Below are positions 26,060 to 50,277 of a DNA stretch of 64,000 nucleotides, one piece after another (the first letter of the stretch is position 1; every line of letters starts with the position of its first letter). The translations under genes were made by a program, and so were the position numbers. The notes beneath the pieces were generated by a model, which worked only from the letters and a program-made list of their open reading frames with translations, had not been told where the DNA came from and did no database searches. The DNA is from Pedobacter metabolipauper (GTDB lineage: Bacteria; Bacteroidota; Bacteroidia; Sphingobacteriales; Sphingobacteriaceae), in the NCBI RefSeq assembly GCF_004362715.1, contig NZ_SNYC01000003.1, forward strand, positions 249,601 to 313,600, in the 5' to 3' direction.

Positions 26060-28756
26060 ATGACAGCTAAGGAAATAAGACAGGCGTACTTAAAATTTTT
26101 CGAATCAAAACAACATCACATTGTTTCATCTGCACCAATTGTAGTTAAAAACGATCCGACACTGATGTTTACCAACGCCGGAATGAACCAGTTTAAAGAC
26201 CTGTTCTTAGGTGAGGCGCCGATAAAATATCCAAGAGTTACAGATACCCAGCGGTGTCTGCGTGTTTCCGGGAAACACAATGACCTGGAAGAGGTTGGTA
26301 TTGATACCTACCACCACACCATGTTTGAGATGCTTGGTAACTGGAGTTTTGGCGACTATTTTAAAAAAGAAGCCATTGCATGGAGCTGGGAGCTGCTTAC
26401 GGAAGTTTATAAAATTCCTAAAGATAAATTATATGTATCCATTTTTGAAGGCGATGATAAAGAAGGGCTGCCTAAGGATACTGAAGCTTACGAGTTGTGG
26501 AAGCAGTATGTTCCTGAGGAGCGCATCATCCTGGGAAATAAAAAAGACAATTTTTGGGAAATGGGTGATACCGGTCCCTGCGGACCATGTTCTGAGATCC
26601 ATGTAGATTGCAGACCGGATGATGAGCGTAAGGCCGTTGAAGGTAAATCACTGGTTAATGCCGATCATCCACAGGTTATTGAGATCTGGAACAATGTTTT
26701 TATGCAGTTTAACAGGCTAAAGGACGGTTCGTTACAACCTCTGCCTGCTCAGCATGTTGATACCGGGATGGGTTTTGAACGGTTGGTTCGCGTACTTCAG
26801 GGTAAATCATCCAATTATGACACCGATGTTTTTCAACCGCTGATCCAATTTATTGCAAACCATGCAGGTATCGTTTATGGTACCGATGAAAAAACAGATA
26901 TCGCCATGCGTGTTATGGCCGATCATATCCGCGCAATTTCATTTGTTATTGCTGATGGTCAGCTTCCGTCTAACAATAAGGCTGGTTATGTAATTCGACG
27001 CATTCTTCGTCGCGCAGTCCGTTATGCCTATACTTTCCTTAATTTAAAAGAGCCTTTTCTAAACCAATTGGTGCCTGTATTGGCTGAACAGTTTAAAGGT
27101 GTTTTTGAAGAACTGGTTTTACAGCAGGATTTTGTACAGAAAGTTGTTCTGGAAGAAGAGGTTTCTTTTCTCCGCACCTTAGCAACCGGTATTCAGCGCT
27201 TTGATCATTATACCAGGAAACAGGGTGAATTGCTTATGGCCGAAAATGCCATTGAACTGGAGAAATCATTTGAAGATGCATGGGTACACAGTATCCTAAA
27301 AGATCAAATGGTGATTTCCGGTGAGTTTGCATTTGAACTGCAGGATACTTATGGGTTTCCGATTGATTTAACAGAACTTATGGCCAGAGAACAACGCTGG
27401 TCTGTGGATATGGAAGAATACGGCCGTGAACTGCTTAAACAAAAGGAACGTTCGCGTGCTGCTACTGCTATTGATACGGGCGACTGGGTAATTGTGAATG
27501 GCAACCTTGAGGTTGAGTTTGTTGGTTATGATGATTTTGAAGCCGAAACTGAAATTGTTAAATACCGTAAGGTTAGTGCTAAAGGTAAGGAACAGTACCA
27601 GATCGTTTTAAGCAAAACCCCGTTCTATGCGGAAAGCGGTGGTCAGGTTGGTGATACTGGCAGGCTGGAAGATCACAGCCGGCTCTTCTTTGTTGACATT
27701 ACGGATACCAAGAAAGAGAATGGTGTTATTGTGCATTATGCTGATACCTTGCCTGAAGATCTGGATGGTAGTTTCTGGGCGGTGATCGATGAAGATAAAC
27801 GTTTATTGTCTCAGGATAATCATACCGCTACGCACTTATTACATGCGGCCTTAAAAAAGGTTTTAGGTACTCATGTAAACCAGAAAGGCTCAATGGTGAA
27901 CCCAGACTATCTCCGTTTTGACTTTTCACATTTTGAAAAGATCAGTGAAGAGGACCTGGCTAAAATTGAGCACCTGGTTAATCAAAAAGTAAGAGAAAAT
28001 ATTCCATTAAAGGAACAACGTTATGTTCCTTATGATCAGGCCATTTCAAGTGGTGTGACCGCGTTGTTTGGTGAGAAATACGGCGACCTGGTACGGATCG
28101 TTACGTTTGATGATCATTATTCTAAAGAGCTTTGTGGTGGTACCCATGTACAGGCTACCGGACAGATCGGTTACTTTAAGATCATTTCTGAAAGCGGTGT
28201 GGCTGCTGGGGTAAGGCGTATTGAGGCAATAACGGCTGATAAGGCCGAAGCCTTTGTTTTATCTCAGAATAGAGAACTTAACGAGTTGAGGTCTCTGCTA
28301 AAAGGCAATAAAGATCTAACCGCTGCAGTAAGCGCACTGATTGAAGAAAATAACAAGCTTAAGAAAGAGGCTGATAAAGCGGTAACTGAGCAGTCTGCAA
28401 ATCTGAAGCATGAGATTGTTCATCACCTTAAAACCATTAATGGTGTGAACCTGATCGCTACGCATGTTGACCTGCCAAACGCTGATGCGGTTAAGAATCT
28501 TGCTTTTGCAGTTAAAGATCTGGTTGATGACTTGTTTCTTGTGTTTACTACGTTGATTGACGATAAACCTGGTATCACCGTGATGCTGTCAGAAAACCTG
28601 GTTAAAGATAAAGGATTAAATGCATCAAATATTGTTCGCGAATTGGCAAAGGATATACAAGGTGGCGGAGGCGGTCAGCCTTTCTATGCTACTGCTGGTG
28701 GTAAGAATAAAGAAGGGCTGTCTGCTGTGTTGTTGAAGGCTGAGGAAATGTTGTAA
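26060..28756 (+). CDS. alaS: Alanyl-tRNA synthetase
   Basis: This 898-residue class II synthetase charges tRNA-Ala. The N-terminal catalytic domain begins TAKEIRQAYLKFFESKQHH and has motif 2 around FEMLGNWSFGDYFK. The editing domain has zinc-type ligands H588xxxH592 (HTATH) and C692xxxH696 (CGGTH). The C-terminal DHHA1 domain has the Gly-rich GGGGGQP. All parts are complete and the length is normal. It is transcribed from the plus-strand arm of the mirrored promoter. A structured hairpin begins 4 nt after its stop codon. Confidence 0.98.
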   Translation: MTAKEIRQAYLKFFESKQHHIVSSAPIVVKNDPTLMFTNAGMNQFKDLFLGEAPIKYPRVTDTQRCLRVSGKHNDLEEVGIDTYHHTMFEMLGNWSFGDYFKKEAIAWSWELLTEVYKIPKDKLYVSIFEGDDKEGLPKDTEAYELWKQYVPEERIILGNKKDNFWEMGDTGPCGPCSEIHVDCRPDDERKAVEGKSLVNADHPQVIEIWNNVFMQFNRLKDGSLQPLPAQHVDTGMGFERLVRVLQGKSSNYDTDVFQPLIQFIANHAGIVYGTDEKTDIAMRVMADHIRAISFVIADGQLPSNNKAGYVIRRILRRAVRYAYTFLNLKEPFLNQLVPVLAEQFKGVFEELVLQQDFVQKVVLEEEVSFLRTLATGIQRFDHYTRKQGELLMAENAIELEKSFEDAWVHSILKDQMVISGEFAFELQDTYGFPIDLTELMAREQRWSVDMEEYGRELLKQKERSRAATAIDTGDWVIVNGNLEVEFVGYDDFEAETEIVKYRKVSAKGKEQYQIVLSKTPFYAESGGQVGDTGRLEDHSRLFFVDITDTKKENGVIVHYADTLPEDLDGSFWAVIDEDKRLLSQDNHTATHLLHAALKKVLGTHVNQKGSMVNPDYLRFDFSHFEKISEEDLAKIEHLVNQKVRENIPLKEQRYVPYDQAISSGVTALFGEKYGDLVRIVTFDDHYSKELCGGTHVQATGQIGYFKIISESGVAAGVRRIEAITADKAEAFVLSQNRELNELRSLLKGNKDLTAAVSALIEENNKLKKEADKAVTEQSANLKHEIVHHLKTINGVNLIATHVDLPNADAVKNLAFAVKDLVDDLFLVFTTLIDDKPGITVMLSENLVKDKGLNASNIVRELAKDIQGGGGGQPFYATAGGKNKEGLSAVLLKAEEML

Positions 28757-28759
28757 TTG

Positions 28760-28847
28760 ACAAAAAAAGCGTTCTCTTCGAAGGCGGCATTAATTCCGAT
28801 GAAGAATCGGAAAGAACGCTATGCCTTCTCTGAGAAGCTATTTTTGT
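28760..28847 (+). ncRNA. Structured hairpin element, copy 1 (after alaS)
   Basis: Nested pairing from outside in: 28760-28770 with 28837-28847 (10 of 11 pairs); TTCTC 28772-28776 with GAGAA 28832-28836; GAAGGC 28780-28785 with GCCTTC 28823-28828; TTCCGAT 28794-28800 with ATCGGAA 28806-28812 around loop GAAGA. Bases 28787-28821 are identical to 41779-41813 in copy 2, while the outer arms differ yet remain paired. An alternative 8-bp pairing (28768-28775 with 28813-28820) exists only in this copy. It could be a 3'-UTR structure or an independent RNA, and the strand is assumed from alaS. Confidence 0.65.
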
Positions 28848-28895
28848 TCCTTAAAATTTAGTAGCAGGGTAAGGAGGTGATTAGGAGATCATTTT

Positions 28896-29157
28896 TAGAT
28901 GGTTAGTTAGCTTGTTTAGAGGCTATTTTCTAGATGATTAGTTAGCCTTGTTGATTGGTTATTCTTTAGGTGATTAGTTAGCTTGTTTAGAGGCTATTCT
29001 TTAGATGGTTAATTAGATTGTTCTTTTAGGTGATTAGTTAGCTTGTTTAGAGGCTATTCTTTAGATGGTTAATTAGATTGTTCTTTAGGTTATTAGTTAG
29101 CCTTGTTGATTGGTTATTCTTTAGGTGATTAGTCAGATTATTTTTAGCAGGATTAGG
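28896..29157. repeat. T/G-rich degenerate tandem array, downstream of alaS
   Basis: Nine units begin with TAGRTGRTTAGTTAG or close variants at 28896, 28931, 28967, 29002, 29027, 29062, 29086, 29122 and 29145. Spacing is 35 or 36 bp, or a shorter 23-25 bp. A 60-bp double unit is repeated almost exactly at 28967-29026 and 29027-29085. The plus strand is nearly free of C. No reading frame is supported. Confidence 0.85.
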
Positions 29158-29166
29158 ATATAATTA

Positions 29167-29217
29167 AAAAACCGTTAAGGTTGCAGTTTCGTTGGAACGG
29201 CAAACCTTAACGGTTTT
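29167..29217. terminator. Bidirectional terminator between alaS and DoxX gene
   Basis: The 15-bp perfect arms AAAACCGTTAAGGTT (29167-29181) and AACCTTAACGGTTTT (29203-29217) are flanked by A and T runs. They end plus-strand transcripts from the alaS side and minus-strand transcripts of the DoxX gene would start beyond it. Confidence 0.85.
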
Positions 29218-29244
29218 GTTTTTTGATAGATAGTTTTATGGTTA

Positions 29245-40471: not shown

Positions 40472-41740
40472 ATGAAATACCTAAAGTCCTTATTTTTAAT
40501 ATTCGTCATTCTTTCTGTTCAGCAGATCAATGCACAAACGGCTAAATCTGCCGATCCACTAAAAGCCCATATGGACAGCTTACAAAAGGGTGTAGAGAAT
40601 GAGAAAGATCCTGCCAAAAAGGAAGTTCTAGCCCTTGCTTTCATTAAAAAATTATCTGGAGAAACAAAAGAAGGTATTGCTATTCGGGATAATATCAATT
40701 TGAATGTGGCGATGGCTTATGCGAATGCAAAGAATCCGGATAAAGCATTGGCCTACGCCAGCAGCTTTGAAACTACAAGCTGGGTGGGCGAGGGGCGCTC
40801 AAGGGTTGCCCTGGCACTCATCAGGAATGGCTTAATAGATCCGGCCGGCCTGTTGCTTAAAAAAGCAATAGAATCTACTGAACCTTTTTTAAAGGTTGAG
40901 CGGACTACTGATTATGGCAAATTTGCCGCCGCCTCTGGATACCGGTATTATTGTACCGACTATGCTGATGTACTTTTCCGTCAGGGTAAATATGAAGAGG
41001 CCCTAAAGTTTATTAAAATTGCACATGCCGCTTTTCCGGAGACAAAAGGTTCTGTAAATGCTATCTATGCCCAGACTTTGGTAAAACTGAACAGGTATCC
41101 AGAAGCTTTTACCCTTATAGATGAAGCCGTAAAGCGCGGGCAGGCAACAACGGCTATAAAAGGATTGATGAAAGAAGTGTATGTTAAAGCCAAAGGTTCT
41201 GAATCAGGTTATGCAGCTTATGAAGCAGATGTTAAAAAACTGTTTGCCGAACAAACAAAAGCCCAGCTGGCTAAACAGATGTTTAAAGAAACTGCACCAA
41301 CCTTTTCCTTAAAAGACCTTGATGGTCATACCGTTTCTACCGAATCACTAAAAGGTAAAACCGTTGTTCTTGATTTTTGGGCTACCTGGTGCGGTCCTTG
41401 TAAAGCCTCTTTTCCTGCTATGGCGATGGCAGTAAAGCGTTATGAAAGTGATACTACCGTTAAATTCCTGTTCATACACACTATGGAATATAGTGATCAG
41501 GCTACAGAAGAAGCAAGAAGCTATATTAAATCAACAAAATATCCTTTTCAGGTACTTATGGATCTTAAAGAAAAAGGCGTAAAAGGAAATAAGGTTGTTG
41601 ACAGCTTTAAAACATCTATGATCCCTGCAAAATATGTGATCGATAAGAATGGTAATCTGCGTTTTAGAATGATCGGTTACCATGAAGGGGATGATGCAAC
41701 ACTGGAACAGATTACGGCAATGATTGAATTGGTCAAGTAA
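40472..41740 (+). CDS. TlpA-like thioredoxin with helical repeat domain
   Basis: This 422-residue periplasmic protein has a signal peptide (about 1-22, ending NAQ). A helical TPR-like region (about 30-260, with AMAYANAKNPDKALAYASS and VLFRQGKYEEALKFIK) precedes a thioredoxin domain with WCGPC (C307 and C310). The fold after the active site includes MIPAKYVIDKNGNLRFR. It is downstream of the SusCD locus but behind a terminator, so it may have its own promoter. A structured hairpin starts 7 nt after its stop. Confidence 0.87.
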   Translation: MKYLKSLFLIFVILSVQQINAQTAKSADPLKAHMDSLQKGVENEKDPAKKEVLALAFIKKLSGETKEGIAIRDNINLNVAMAYANAKNPDKALAYASSFETTSWVGEGRSRVALALIRNGLIDPAGLLLKKAIESTEPFLKVERTTDYGKFAAASGYRYYCTDYADVLFRQGKYEEALKFIKIAHAAFPETKGSVNAIYAQTLVKLNRYPEAFTLIDEAVKRGQATTAIKGLMKEVYVKAKGSESGYAAYEADVKKLFAEQTKAQLAKQMFKETAPTFSLKDLDGHTVSTESLKGKTVVLDFWATWCGPCKASFPAMAMAVKRYESDTTVKFLFIHTMEYSDQATEEARSYIKSTKYPFQVLMDLKEKGVKGNKVVDSFKTSMIPAKYVIDKNGNLRFRMIGYHEGDDATLEQITAMIELVK

Positions 41741-41746
41741 TTAATT

Positions 41747-41843
41747 ATAAGCAAATAAAGCATTTCTCTTCTCAGGCTGCATTAATTCCGATGAAGAATC
41801 GGAAAGAACGCTAGGCCTGCTCTGAGAAGCTGTATTTGCTTAT
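41747..41843 (+). ncRNA. Structured hairpin element, copy 2 (after thioredoxin gene)
   Basis: Nested pairing: ATAAGCAAATA (41747-41757) with TATTTGCTTAT (41833-41843), 11 perfect pairs; CTTCTC (41768-41773) with GAGAAG (41824-41829); AGGC (41774-41777) with GCCT (41815-41818), or CAGGC with GCCTG; TTCCGAT (41786-41792) with ATCGGAA (41798-41804), loop GAAGA. The 35-nt core 41779-41813 is identical to copy 1. The arms differ from copy 1 but keep pairing. Confidence 0.65.
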
Positions 41844-41879
41844 CAAATTCTTACATTGTTAGGAGGATAGTTAAAAGCT

Positions 41880-42066
41880 GATTTATGATGGATTATTAGG
41901 TTCATGGTGGATTGTCAGTGTATGATTATTAGTGCGTGATTATGGTGGGGTGTTAGTGCGTGATTATGATGGATTATTAGTTCATGATGGATGTTAAGTT
42001 CATGATTATGTTGGATTGTTAGTGTATAGTTATGATGTATTATTAGTTCATAATTTATATGGAGCA
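41880..42066. repeat. T/G-rich degenerate tandem array, downstream of thioredoxin gene
   Basis: It is built of variants of GATTATGATGGATTATTAG and TTCATGATGGATTGTTAGTG, with irregular 18-26 bp spacing, again nearly lacking C on the plus strand. It occupies the same place relative to hairpin copy 2 as the array at 28896 does to copy 1. From 42067 to the next ATG (42217) I see nothing distinct. Confidence 0.75.
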
Positions 42067-42216
42067 TTGTTATTCTGAAATTTGATCGGATCCTTTTTGT
42101 CGATTAGTAAACAGCTTCTGTCGTTTTATTTTTGTTCTTGGTAGTTGGGTGGCTTTTCGGTATGATCTGCGGCATGTGGTTTGAATTATCCTTGACAGAT
42201 AACAAACACACATATT

Positions 42217-49633: not shown

Positions 49634-49730
49634 AGGTAATGCTTCAATTTTTATTAAGGATGCTAATATATTACTTTTCTCACGTAATACGAATATGCCC
49701 CGGATTTCCCGAAGCAAAGATATAAAAAAA

Positions 49731-50101
49731 TGCAAGCCTGTAAGCCGGGTTCTGTAATGTTAATAAATCAACATCTTCTATCATTAATCCAGTATAAATG
49801 TTGCCATTTATCTCTAACGACCTACCCACTAACATCGAACGAGCAGCCCTACATGCGTTAGCCTATTTGGTCTTTCAACTCCCGGGGTTTACCAGTTCTC
49901 CGGTCGCCCGGAAAAATCGTGAGCTCTTACCTCACGTTTTCAACCTTACCTGTGCTTAAAAGCCATCGGCGGTATGCTTTCTGCGGCACTTTCCATAACC
50001 TGGGCATTCATTCCCAGGCCTCTTCCCGTTAGGAAGCGGGATGCTCTGTGTTGCCCGGACTTTCCTCTCCGATTAAATCGCAGCGATAGAACGGCTTGCA
50101 T
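49731..50101 (-). ncRNA. rnpB: RNase P RNA, bacterial class A
   Basis: This RNA subunit of RNase P cleaves 5' leaders from tRNA precursors. On the minus strand it begins TGCAAGCC and ends GGCTTGCA, forming helix P1. The universal 5' region GAGGAAAGTCCGGGC, the GGTAAGG motif and the 3' region with the GGCTTAC segment are all present. Length is about 371 nt. It lies between the NtrC-type gene and the next plus-strand gene. End positions may be off by a few bases. Confidence 0.95.
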
Positions 50102-50277
50102 TTTGTGCAAATGTAGGATAAATAAGCAAAAGTTGCTTTATTTTGATGGTTTAACAAATAAACAGTGATCTAACTGGCTTTAAAAATTATATTTTATTCT
50201 ATAAGTAACCTTAAGTCAATAATTTTCAATATGTTTAATTTAATGTTCTTCAAATTTTATATTCGATCTCAATAGTT

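Follow-up and report, generated by a model that had tools for sequence, protein, structure and literature searches.

The window, a 64,000-nucleotide stretch of the Pedobacter metabolipauper genome, carries two long hairpins. One follows alaS, and the other follows a gene for a protein that combines TPR repeats with an AhpC/TSA (thioredoxin-fold) domain (Table 1). Folding energies are -38.0 kcal/mol for copy 1 and -40.8 for copy 2, values equalled by none of 200 shuffles of each sequence. The apical 19-mer occurs twice in the window when up to three mismatches are allowed, against an expectation of 0.01.

Table 1. Window hairpins, their shared parts and their host genes
Feature	Position in window	Strand	Evidence
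Hairpin copy 1, behind alaS	28759-28848 (model match 28753-28853)	+	Fold z -5.8; R1 match 111.1 bits, R1 seed
Hairpin copy 2, behind the TPR/AhpC-TSA gene	41747-41843 (model match 41744-41845)	+	Fold z -6.2; R1 match 101.3 bits, R1 seed
Copy 1 core, 35 nt, same as copy 2 core	28787-28821	+	Exact match
Copy 1 apical hairpin, GAAGA loop	28794-28812	+	Exact match
Copy 2 core, 35 nt, same as copy 1 core	41779-41813	+	Exact match
Copy 2 apical hairpin	41786-41804	+	Exact match
alaS, host gene of copy 1	26060-28756, stop TAA 28754-28756	+	ORF; Pfam tRNA-synt_2c, tRNA_SAD, DHHA1
TPR + AhpC/TSA (thioredoxin-fold) protein gene, host of copy 2	40472-41740, stop TAA 41738-41740	+	ORF; Pfam AhpC-TSA, Redoxin, TPR

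The original prediction described twin hairpins with a common 35-nt core, a GAAGA loop and stem arms that differ between the copies. The core is indeed letter for letter the same in both. The arms GAAGGC/GCCTTC and CAGGC/GCCTG and the GAAGA loop are all present, and the outer arms, though unlike between the copies, each pair with their own partner. Both hairpins start right after a stop codon, as had been proposed, but the distance given, 4 to 7 nt, needs correcting: the stems begin 2 nt (copy 1) and 6 nt (copy 2) downstream.

On the + strand, the spacers behind both copies are very poor in C (7.6% in 28851-29244 and 8.9% in 41846-42216), and both contain minisatellites. A similar spacer follows a third copy in the same genome (L006). 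The window also opens with a 92-nt tandem repeat of 3.5 copies (1-321).

A Pedobacter hairpin family with a covarying structure

The genome from which the window comes (G000) measures 5.25 Mb and is 99.9% complete. BLAST located about 20 further places in it. A covariance model, R1, was built from 24 seed copies, with L053 kept out of the seeds. R1 recovers 23 copies in this genome from 26 scored candidates, and the window copies are two of these 23.

Across the genus, R1 matches 57 of 145 Pedobacter genomes at E up to 1e-3. At least six matches are found in 37 of these genomes, and one to four, several of them weak, in the remaining 20. All 28 scored candidates matched in nine genomes, so the counts there are lower bounds. 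We also searched 151 genomes of the family, from 25 genera, at E up to 1e-4. Besides the window's own genome, this gave only one match, the sole one outside the genus, and it is marginal (32 bits; the genome it comes from is 7% contaminated). The element is likely confined to the genus Pedobacter, as far as the search extended. Within it, a Pedobacter nyackensis contig (L091) holds two full copies, one equal in score to a copy in genome G026. Related genomes do, then, contain further copies, and their arms change yet still pair, in keeping with what had been read from two copies.

In total, 171 distinct copies were gathered by BLAST and model score, a route that under-represents weak copies. 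Orthologues in related genomes are counted separately in this set, and genes are ORF calls made by script, not annotation. Near-contiguous tandem copies, 2 to 3 nt apart, occur at L211 (2927-3221) and L145 (1497-1696).

No named RNA family had been thought to fit the hairpins, and this holds, as no Rfam entry matches the element. At the gathering score, Rfam matched only RNase P in the window (class A, 49725-50102, - strand). Ten element loci searched at E up to 1 gave only two sub-threshold matches, caiA and mir-2545. Nor did the open-access literature, most of it represented without full texts, yield a description of the family. The exact 35-mer has no occurrence in named genomes, and plasmid and phage records gave no match with blastn in its 'distant' mode. 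In viral contigs, a 31-mer gave no stretches and the 19-mer gave two, rejected by eye because their surroundings are unlike the element.

The 19-mer is found in 32 stretches of named genomes, 26 of them in Pedobacter. Most of these were rejected as element copies, since by eye they belong to another repeat with AGTCCCGC...CGGGTTTAG surroundings, for which the R1 score is low or missing. This distinct Pedobacter repeat has the apical 19-mer of the window element, TTCCGATGAAGAATCGGAA, and is present at L037, L038, L060, L064, L067, L084 and other loci.

The element is a folded unit of about 90 to 100 nt with several internal loops. Outermost is an A-rich/T-rich stem, followed by a short stem with a bulge, which reads ACC/GGT in most copies. 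Further inwards come TTCTC/GAGAA, an internal loop and a GGC/GCC stem. The inner stem exists in at least two states, of the GCATT/AACGC and GGAAT/ATTCC types. The apical stem varies among copies, and its loop is GAAGA, GAAAA or GAAGG in 138 of 171. A pseudoknot formed by the inner arms was weighed by eye alone and set aside. The identical core reported at the outset is thus a property of the two window copies and not of the family, in which the core of other copies varies with compensation.

We assessed covariation in an alignment, A2, of 97 copies that are not R1 seeds (place lists were compared), fitted to the model. Standard pairs make up 94.2% of 2776 cells, against 77.4% after shuffling. 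Double changes affect 27 of 30 pairs. Doubly changed cells number 391, against 92.5 in shuffled alignments and 42 to 72 in slid ones. The covariation score reaches 0.391, compared with 0.114. In a MAFFT alignment of the 24 seeds, the measures lie above all shuffles with one exception: 25 of 500 shuffles reached the observed number of pair types. These data establish both the family and its covarying structure.

Parts of the element differ in how they are shared. Over the apical 28 nt, similarity is 0.66 within genomes and 0.54 between them (139 copies, 16 genomes). The outer arms of the same copies are as alike within genomes as between them (0.55 and 0.55; 0.59 and 0.59). Genome labels for this comparison were assigned by hand from listings, covering 139 of the 171 copies. 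Since the apical core is alike within genomes and the arms are not, the core appears to be the unit shared or spread within a species, while the arms vary by locus.

Orientation at stop codons and conservation of orthologous copies

The element's most telling property is its sense position at stop codons, seen behind a wide range of genes in dozens of species. A sense stop codon lies within 20 nt of the stem in 107 of 171 copies, whereas an antisense stop lies within 20 nt on the other side in only 3. The distance from the stop is at most 15 nt in 98 copies. In 31 copies the stop codon ends at one fixed place within the 5' arm, usually as the TAA of AAAATAACC. Such a bias in orientation at gene stops suggests that the strand that matters is the transcribed one.

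Neighbouring copies are also ordered. Among neighbours no more than 700 nt apart, 34 opposed pairs are turned towards each other and none away; nine more neighbours are in tandem. Many facing pairs represent two convergent genes with one copy each; in others the second copy is antisense. Of the 171 copies, 48 lie elsewhere than at a sense gene end; for 20 of them, a partner in inverted orientation lies no more than 400 nt away.

Many loci are orthologous in three relatives (G103, G130 and G121). At the compared loci the element changes slowly: mean identity is 0.95 in the element, 0.89 in about 215 nt upstream, mostly coding, and 0.61 in 120 nt downstream. These means were computed by hand from 10 valid comparisons of 12, at six loci; the two excluded comparisons, both of L319, are cut by a contig end. 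At one locus in two species (L338 and L339), the inner core states differ inside similar outer arms.

Occupancy of a given gene end is less constant. Among 28 genomes, only the window's own has a sense copy at alaS. In several relatives the alaS slot holds an ordinary terminator by eye, and a strict scan calls one in 7 of 28. G103 and G121 have the element at the stop of the convergent gene that follows alaS. In the near relative G130 (L227), an unrelated palindrome of GTCATCCTGAA type lies directly behind the same stop, by eye. Presence differs between lineages, yet copies in place are well conserved; positions are therefore gained and lost, while the copies themselves change slowly.

Folded strand, gene ends and mobility

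Selection on the transcribed RNA alone would be expected to leave more G.U than A.C in the arms. The 123 sense gene-end copies hold 36 G.U and 89 A.C, with a bootstrap share of G.U of 0.22 to 0.36. Scored without preference, 78 terminator hairpins from the fetched loci gave 21 G.U and 5 A.C (Fisher p 2e-6 versus the element). A neutral arm-to-arm comparison of 154 copies gave 9 G.U and 20 A.C (p 3e-4), although one inherited subfamily state accounts for several of these A.C cells, so the A.C excess is not to be pressed. What can safely be said is that the element's arms do not favour wobble pairs. Transcription of both strands between convergent genes is not supported as the cause, because co-directional copies show the same pattern as convergent ones (11 to 23, against 25 to 63).

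Covariation had been put forward as the mark of a selected structure. The compensatory changes bear this out, but the pattern is not the one typical of RNA, as wobble is not favoured. From this pattern, either complementarity of the arms seems to be maintained at the DNA level, or what folds is DNA or the opposite strand. Template switching is described as homogenising the arms of inverted repeats in the accessible text of PMC8604942. The strand bias favours RNA or one DNA strand, and the absent wobble preference argues for a DNA-level influence on the arms.

Base composition is skewed at the ends of the element in the 123 sense gene-end copies: 99 have at least 6 A in the best 8-nt window at the 5' end, and 86 have a T-rich 3' base with 6 or more T in 8 nt. 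This T-rich arm forms part of the stem. A pattern scan for terminators does not call the element itself (no site in either window region), and no other terminator-like site was found between either window copy and the next gene. With no other such site behind the window genes, the simplest role to propose is that the element ends the mRNA or shields it. A separate canonical terminator stands behind 20 of 123 gene ends with the element and behind 6 of 81 without it (p 0.085). Because the scan does not call the element and separate terminators are at least as frequent at element ends, termination alone is insufficient.

It is improbable that the element is no more than a repeated intrinsic terminator that has a conserved core, a DNA or RNA hairpin with an A- and T-rich base standing in for ordinary terminators. 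The base composition fits this account, and so do the ordinary terminators in the alaS slot of several relatives. Simple replacement is not supported, however, since separate terminators are no rarer behind copies. A symmetric terminator, moreover, needs neither a strand bias of 107 to 3 nor a conserved loop and core, and the wobble pattern differs from that of terminators.

The reading we prefer, and to which we give about an even chance, is of a dispersed, now selected, mostly sense-oriented element that would act as a putative transcribed 3'-end hairpin at both the stop codon and the mRNA end. Copies would be transcribed together with their host genes. With its A-rich/T-rich base, the hairpin could terminate transcription or hold off 3' exonucleases. 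Placement within 15 nt of the stop may let it act on terminating ribosomes, by analogy with what has been reported for E. coli REPs. The arms would be held complementary partly through a DNA-level process, for example template switching between them, a step proposed because wobble is not favoured. The conserved inner core may bind a factor. We hold more tentatively a bolder picture, in which the palindrome is stop-anchored and strand-aware and spreads without a RAYT. Copies would be deposited at gene ends in the sense orientation, and some would bring the stop codon with them; DNA copying from arm to arm would keep the stem paired, and the apical core would be homogenised in each species. Each copy would then be a strongly selected gene-end module.

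The main rival is possible, though we think it rather doubtful. It makes the element a non-autonomous mobile hairpin, MITE- or REP-like, moved by an enzyme that would recognise its folded single-stranded DNA form. The bias to stop codons would come from harm elsewhere or from gene-end targeting, and RNA effects would be a by-product. This would account for dispersed copies, some of them tandem or locally clustered, and for gain and loss between lineages, as with the sense copy at alaS. It would also suit an apical hairpin that is more alike within genomes than between them while the arms are not, and arms in which wobble is not favoured. Orthologous copies, however, change less than their flanks, unlike freely decaying inserts. 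The compared loci gave no precise insertion sites. No transposase to match the element was found, and RAYT, the most plausible class, shows no link to it.

That last point rests on a search for Y1 transposases. One candidate reading makes the element the REP of a RAYT of subclass 2.6. The accessible text of PMC6006769 describes subclass 2.6 genes in Bacteroidetes flanked by atypical hairpins that recur at other places in the genomes. Of 99 Pedobacter genomes, 57 have Y1_Tnp matches, and the element has the REP-like trait of many dispersed intergenic palindromes, often in opposed pairs (23 copies in G000; 34 pairs less than 700 nt apart in fetched loci). The window's own genome, however, has no PF01797 match at E up to 0.001, in a search whose control was positive in 5 of 14 genomes. 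By a hand tally of 99 genomes, the gene is present in 1 of 26 with at least six element matches, and there interrupted by a stop, against 56 of the 73 others (Fisher p 3e-11, an optimistic value because the genomes are related, which inflates the contrast). At E up to 1, R1 matched nothing in any of the 16 Y1_Tnp loci fetched. With no RAYT in G000, near-exclusion across the genus and no copy of the element flanking Y1_Tnp genes, we rejected mobilisation by a RAYT and consider it very improbable. The Pedobacter Y1_Tnp loci (L346-L361) have palindromes of their own, which vary from gene to gene, for example of CCGGATTACAAATCCGG or ACTCGTTAGAAACGAG types, and by eye are mostly not the element.

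The element among known systems

Dispersed palindromes are usually seen as passengers of transposases or as loose 3' structures. Here, Pedobacter has a large palindrome family that is strongly sense-oriented at stops, conserved in place and not linked to a RAYT. The family offers a natural system for asking whether stop-proximal hairpins affect terminating ribosomes outside E. coli and how mRNA 3' ends arise in Bacteroidota. It also poses the question of whether covariation without wobble betrays a constraint on DNA instead of RNA. Such covariation is a caution for RNA discovery based on covariation.

Integron attC sites are folded sites that stand after each gene's stop codon in cassette arrays, sense-oriented and with a variable terminal hairpin. 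The element likewise is a sense-oriented folded site behind a stop with a variable terminal hairpin, but its copies are single and dispersed and form no cassette arrays. None of 18 carrier genomes has an integron integrase (TIGR02249) above the cut-off; sub-threshold matches to tyrosine recombinases appear in all 18 carriers and in 13 of 14 control genomes. An attC identity was rejected on the integrase result and because no invariant boxes of attC type are visible by eye.

Two structured RNAs described in the accessible text of PMC2864571 invite comparison. The Pedo-repair motif (RF01715) is, like the element, a structured RNA candidate of Pedobacter, but it has no match in the window, nor in ten element loci at E up to 1. 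The L17 downstream element is a conserved RNA structure in a potential 3' UTR. It shares with the Pedobacter element a conserved structure behind a gene, but it belongs to a single gene and has many G-U pairs, whereas the Pedobacter element follows many genes and does not favour G-U. The hairpins of RAYT subclass 2.6, as far as PMC6006769 was accessible, resemble the element in being atypical and dispersed in Bacteroidota genomes. They differ in their bond to a transposase gene, which is absent from the window's genome, nearly exclusive of the element in the genus, and without a copy of it at all 16 loci.

E. coli REPs offer a further parallel. The accessible part of PMC12306157, citing its reference 17, states that REPs less than 16 nt from a stop codon were reported to reduce translation and that those farther away were not. 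Both REPs of this kind and the element are dispersed palindromes placed shortly after stop codons. In the same source, 446 of 4,072 predicted REPs lie this close to a stop (15 nt at most), against 98 of 171 sampled element copies. The two differ in build as well: a REP spans 20-40 nt (PMC3733652, in the text accessible), whereas the Pedobacter element spans about 90 to 100 nt with several internal loops and is not RAYT-linked.
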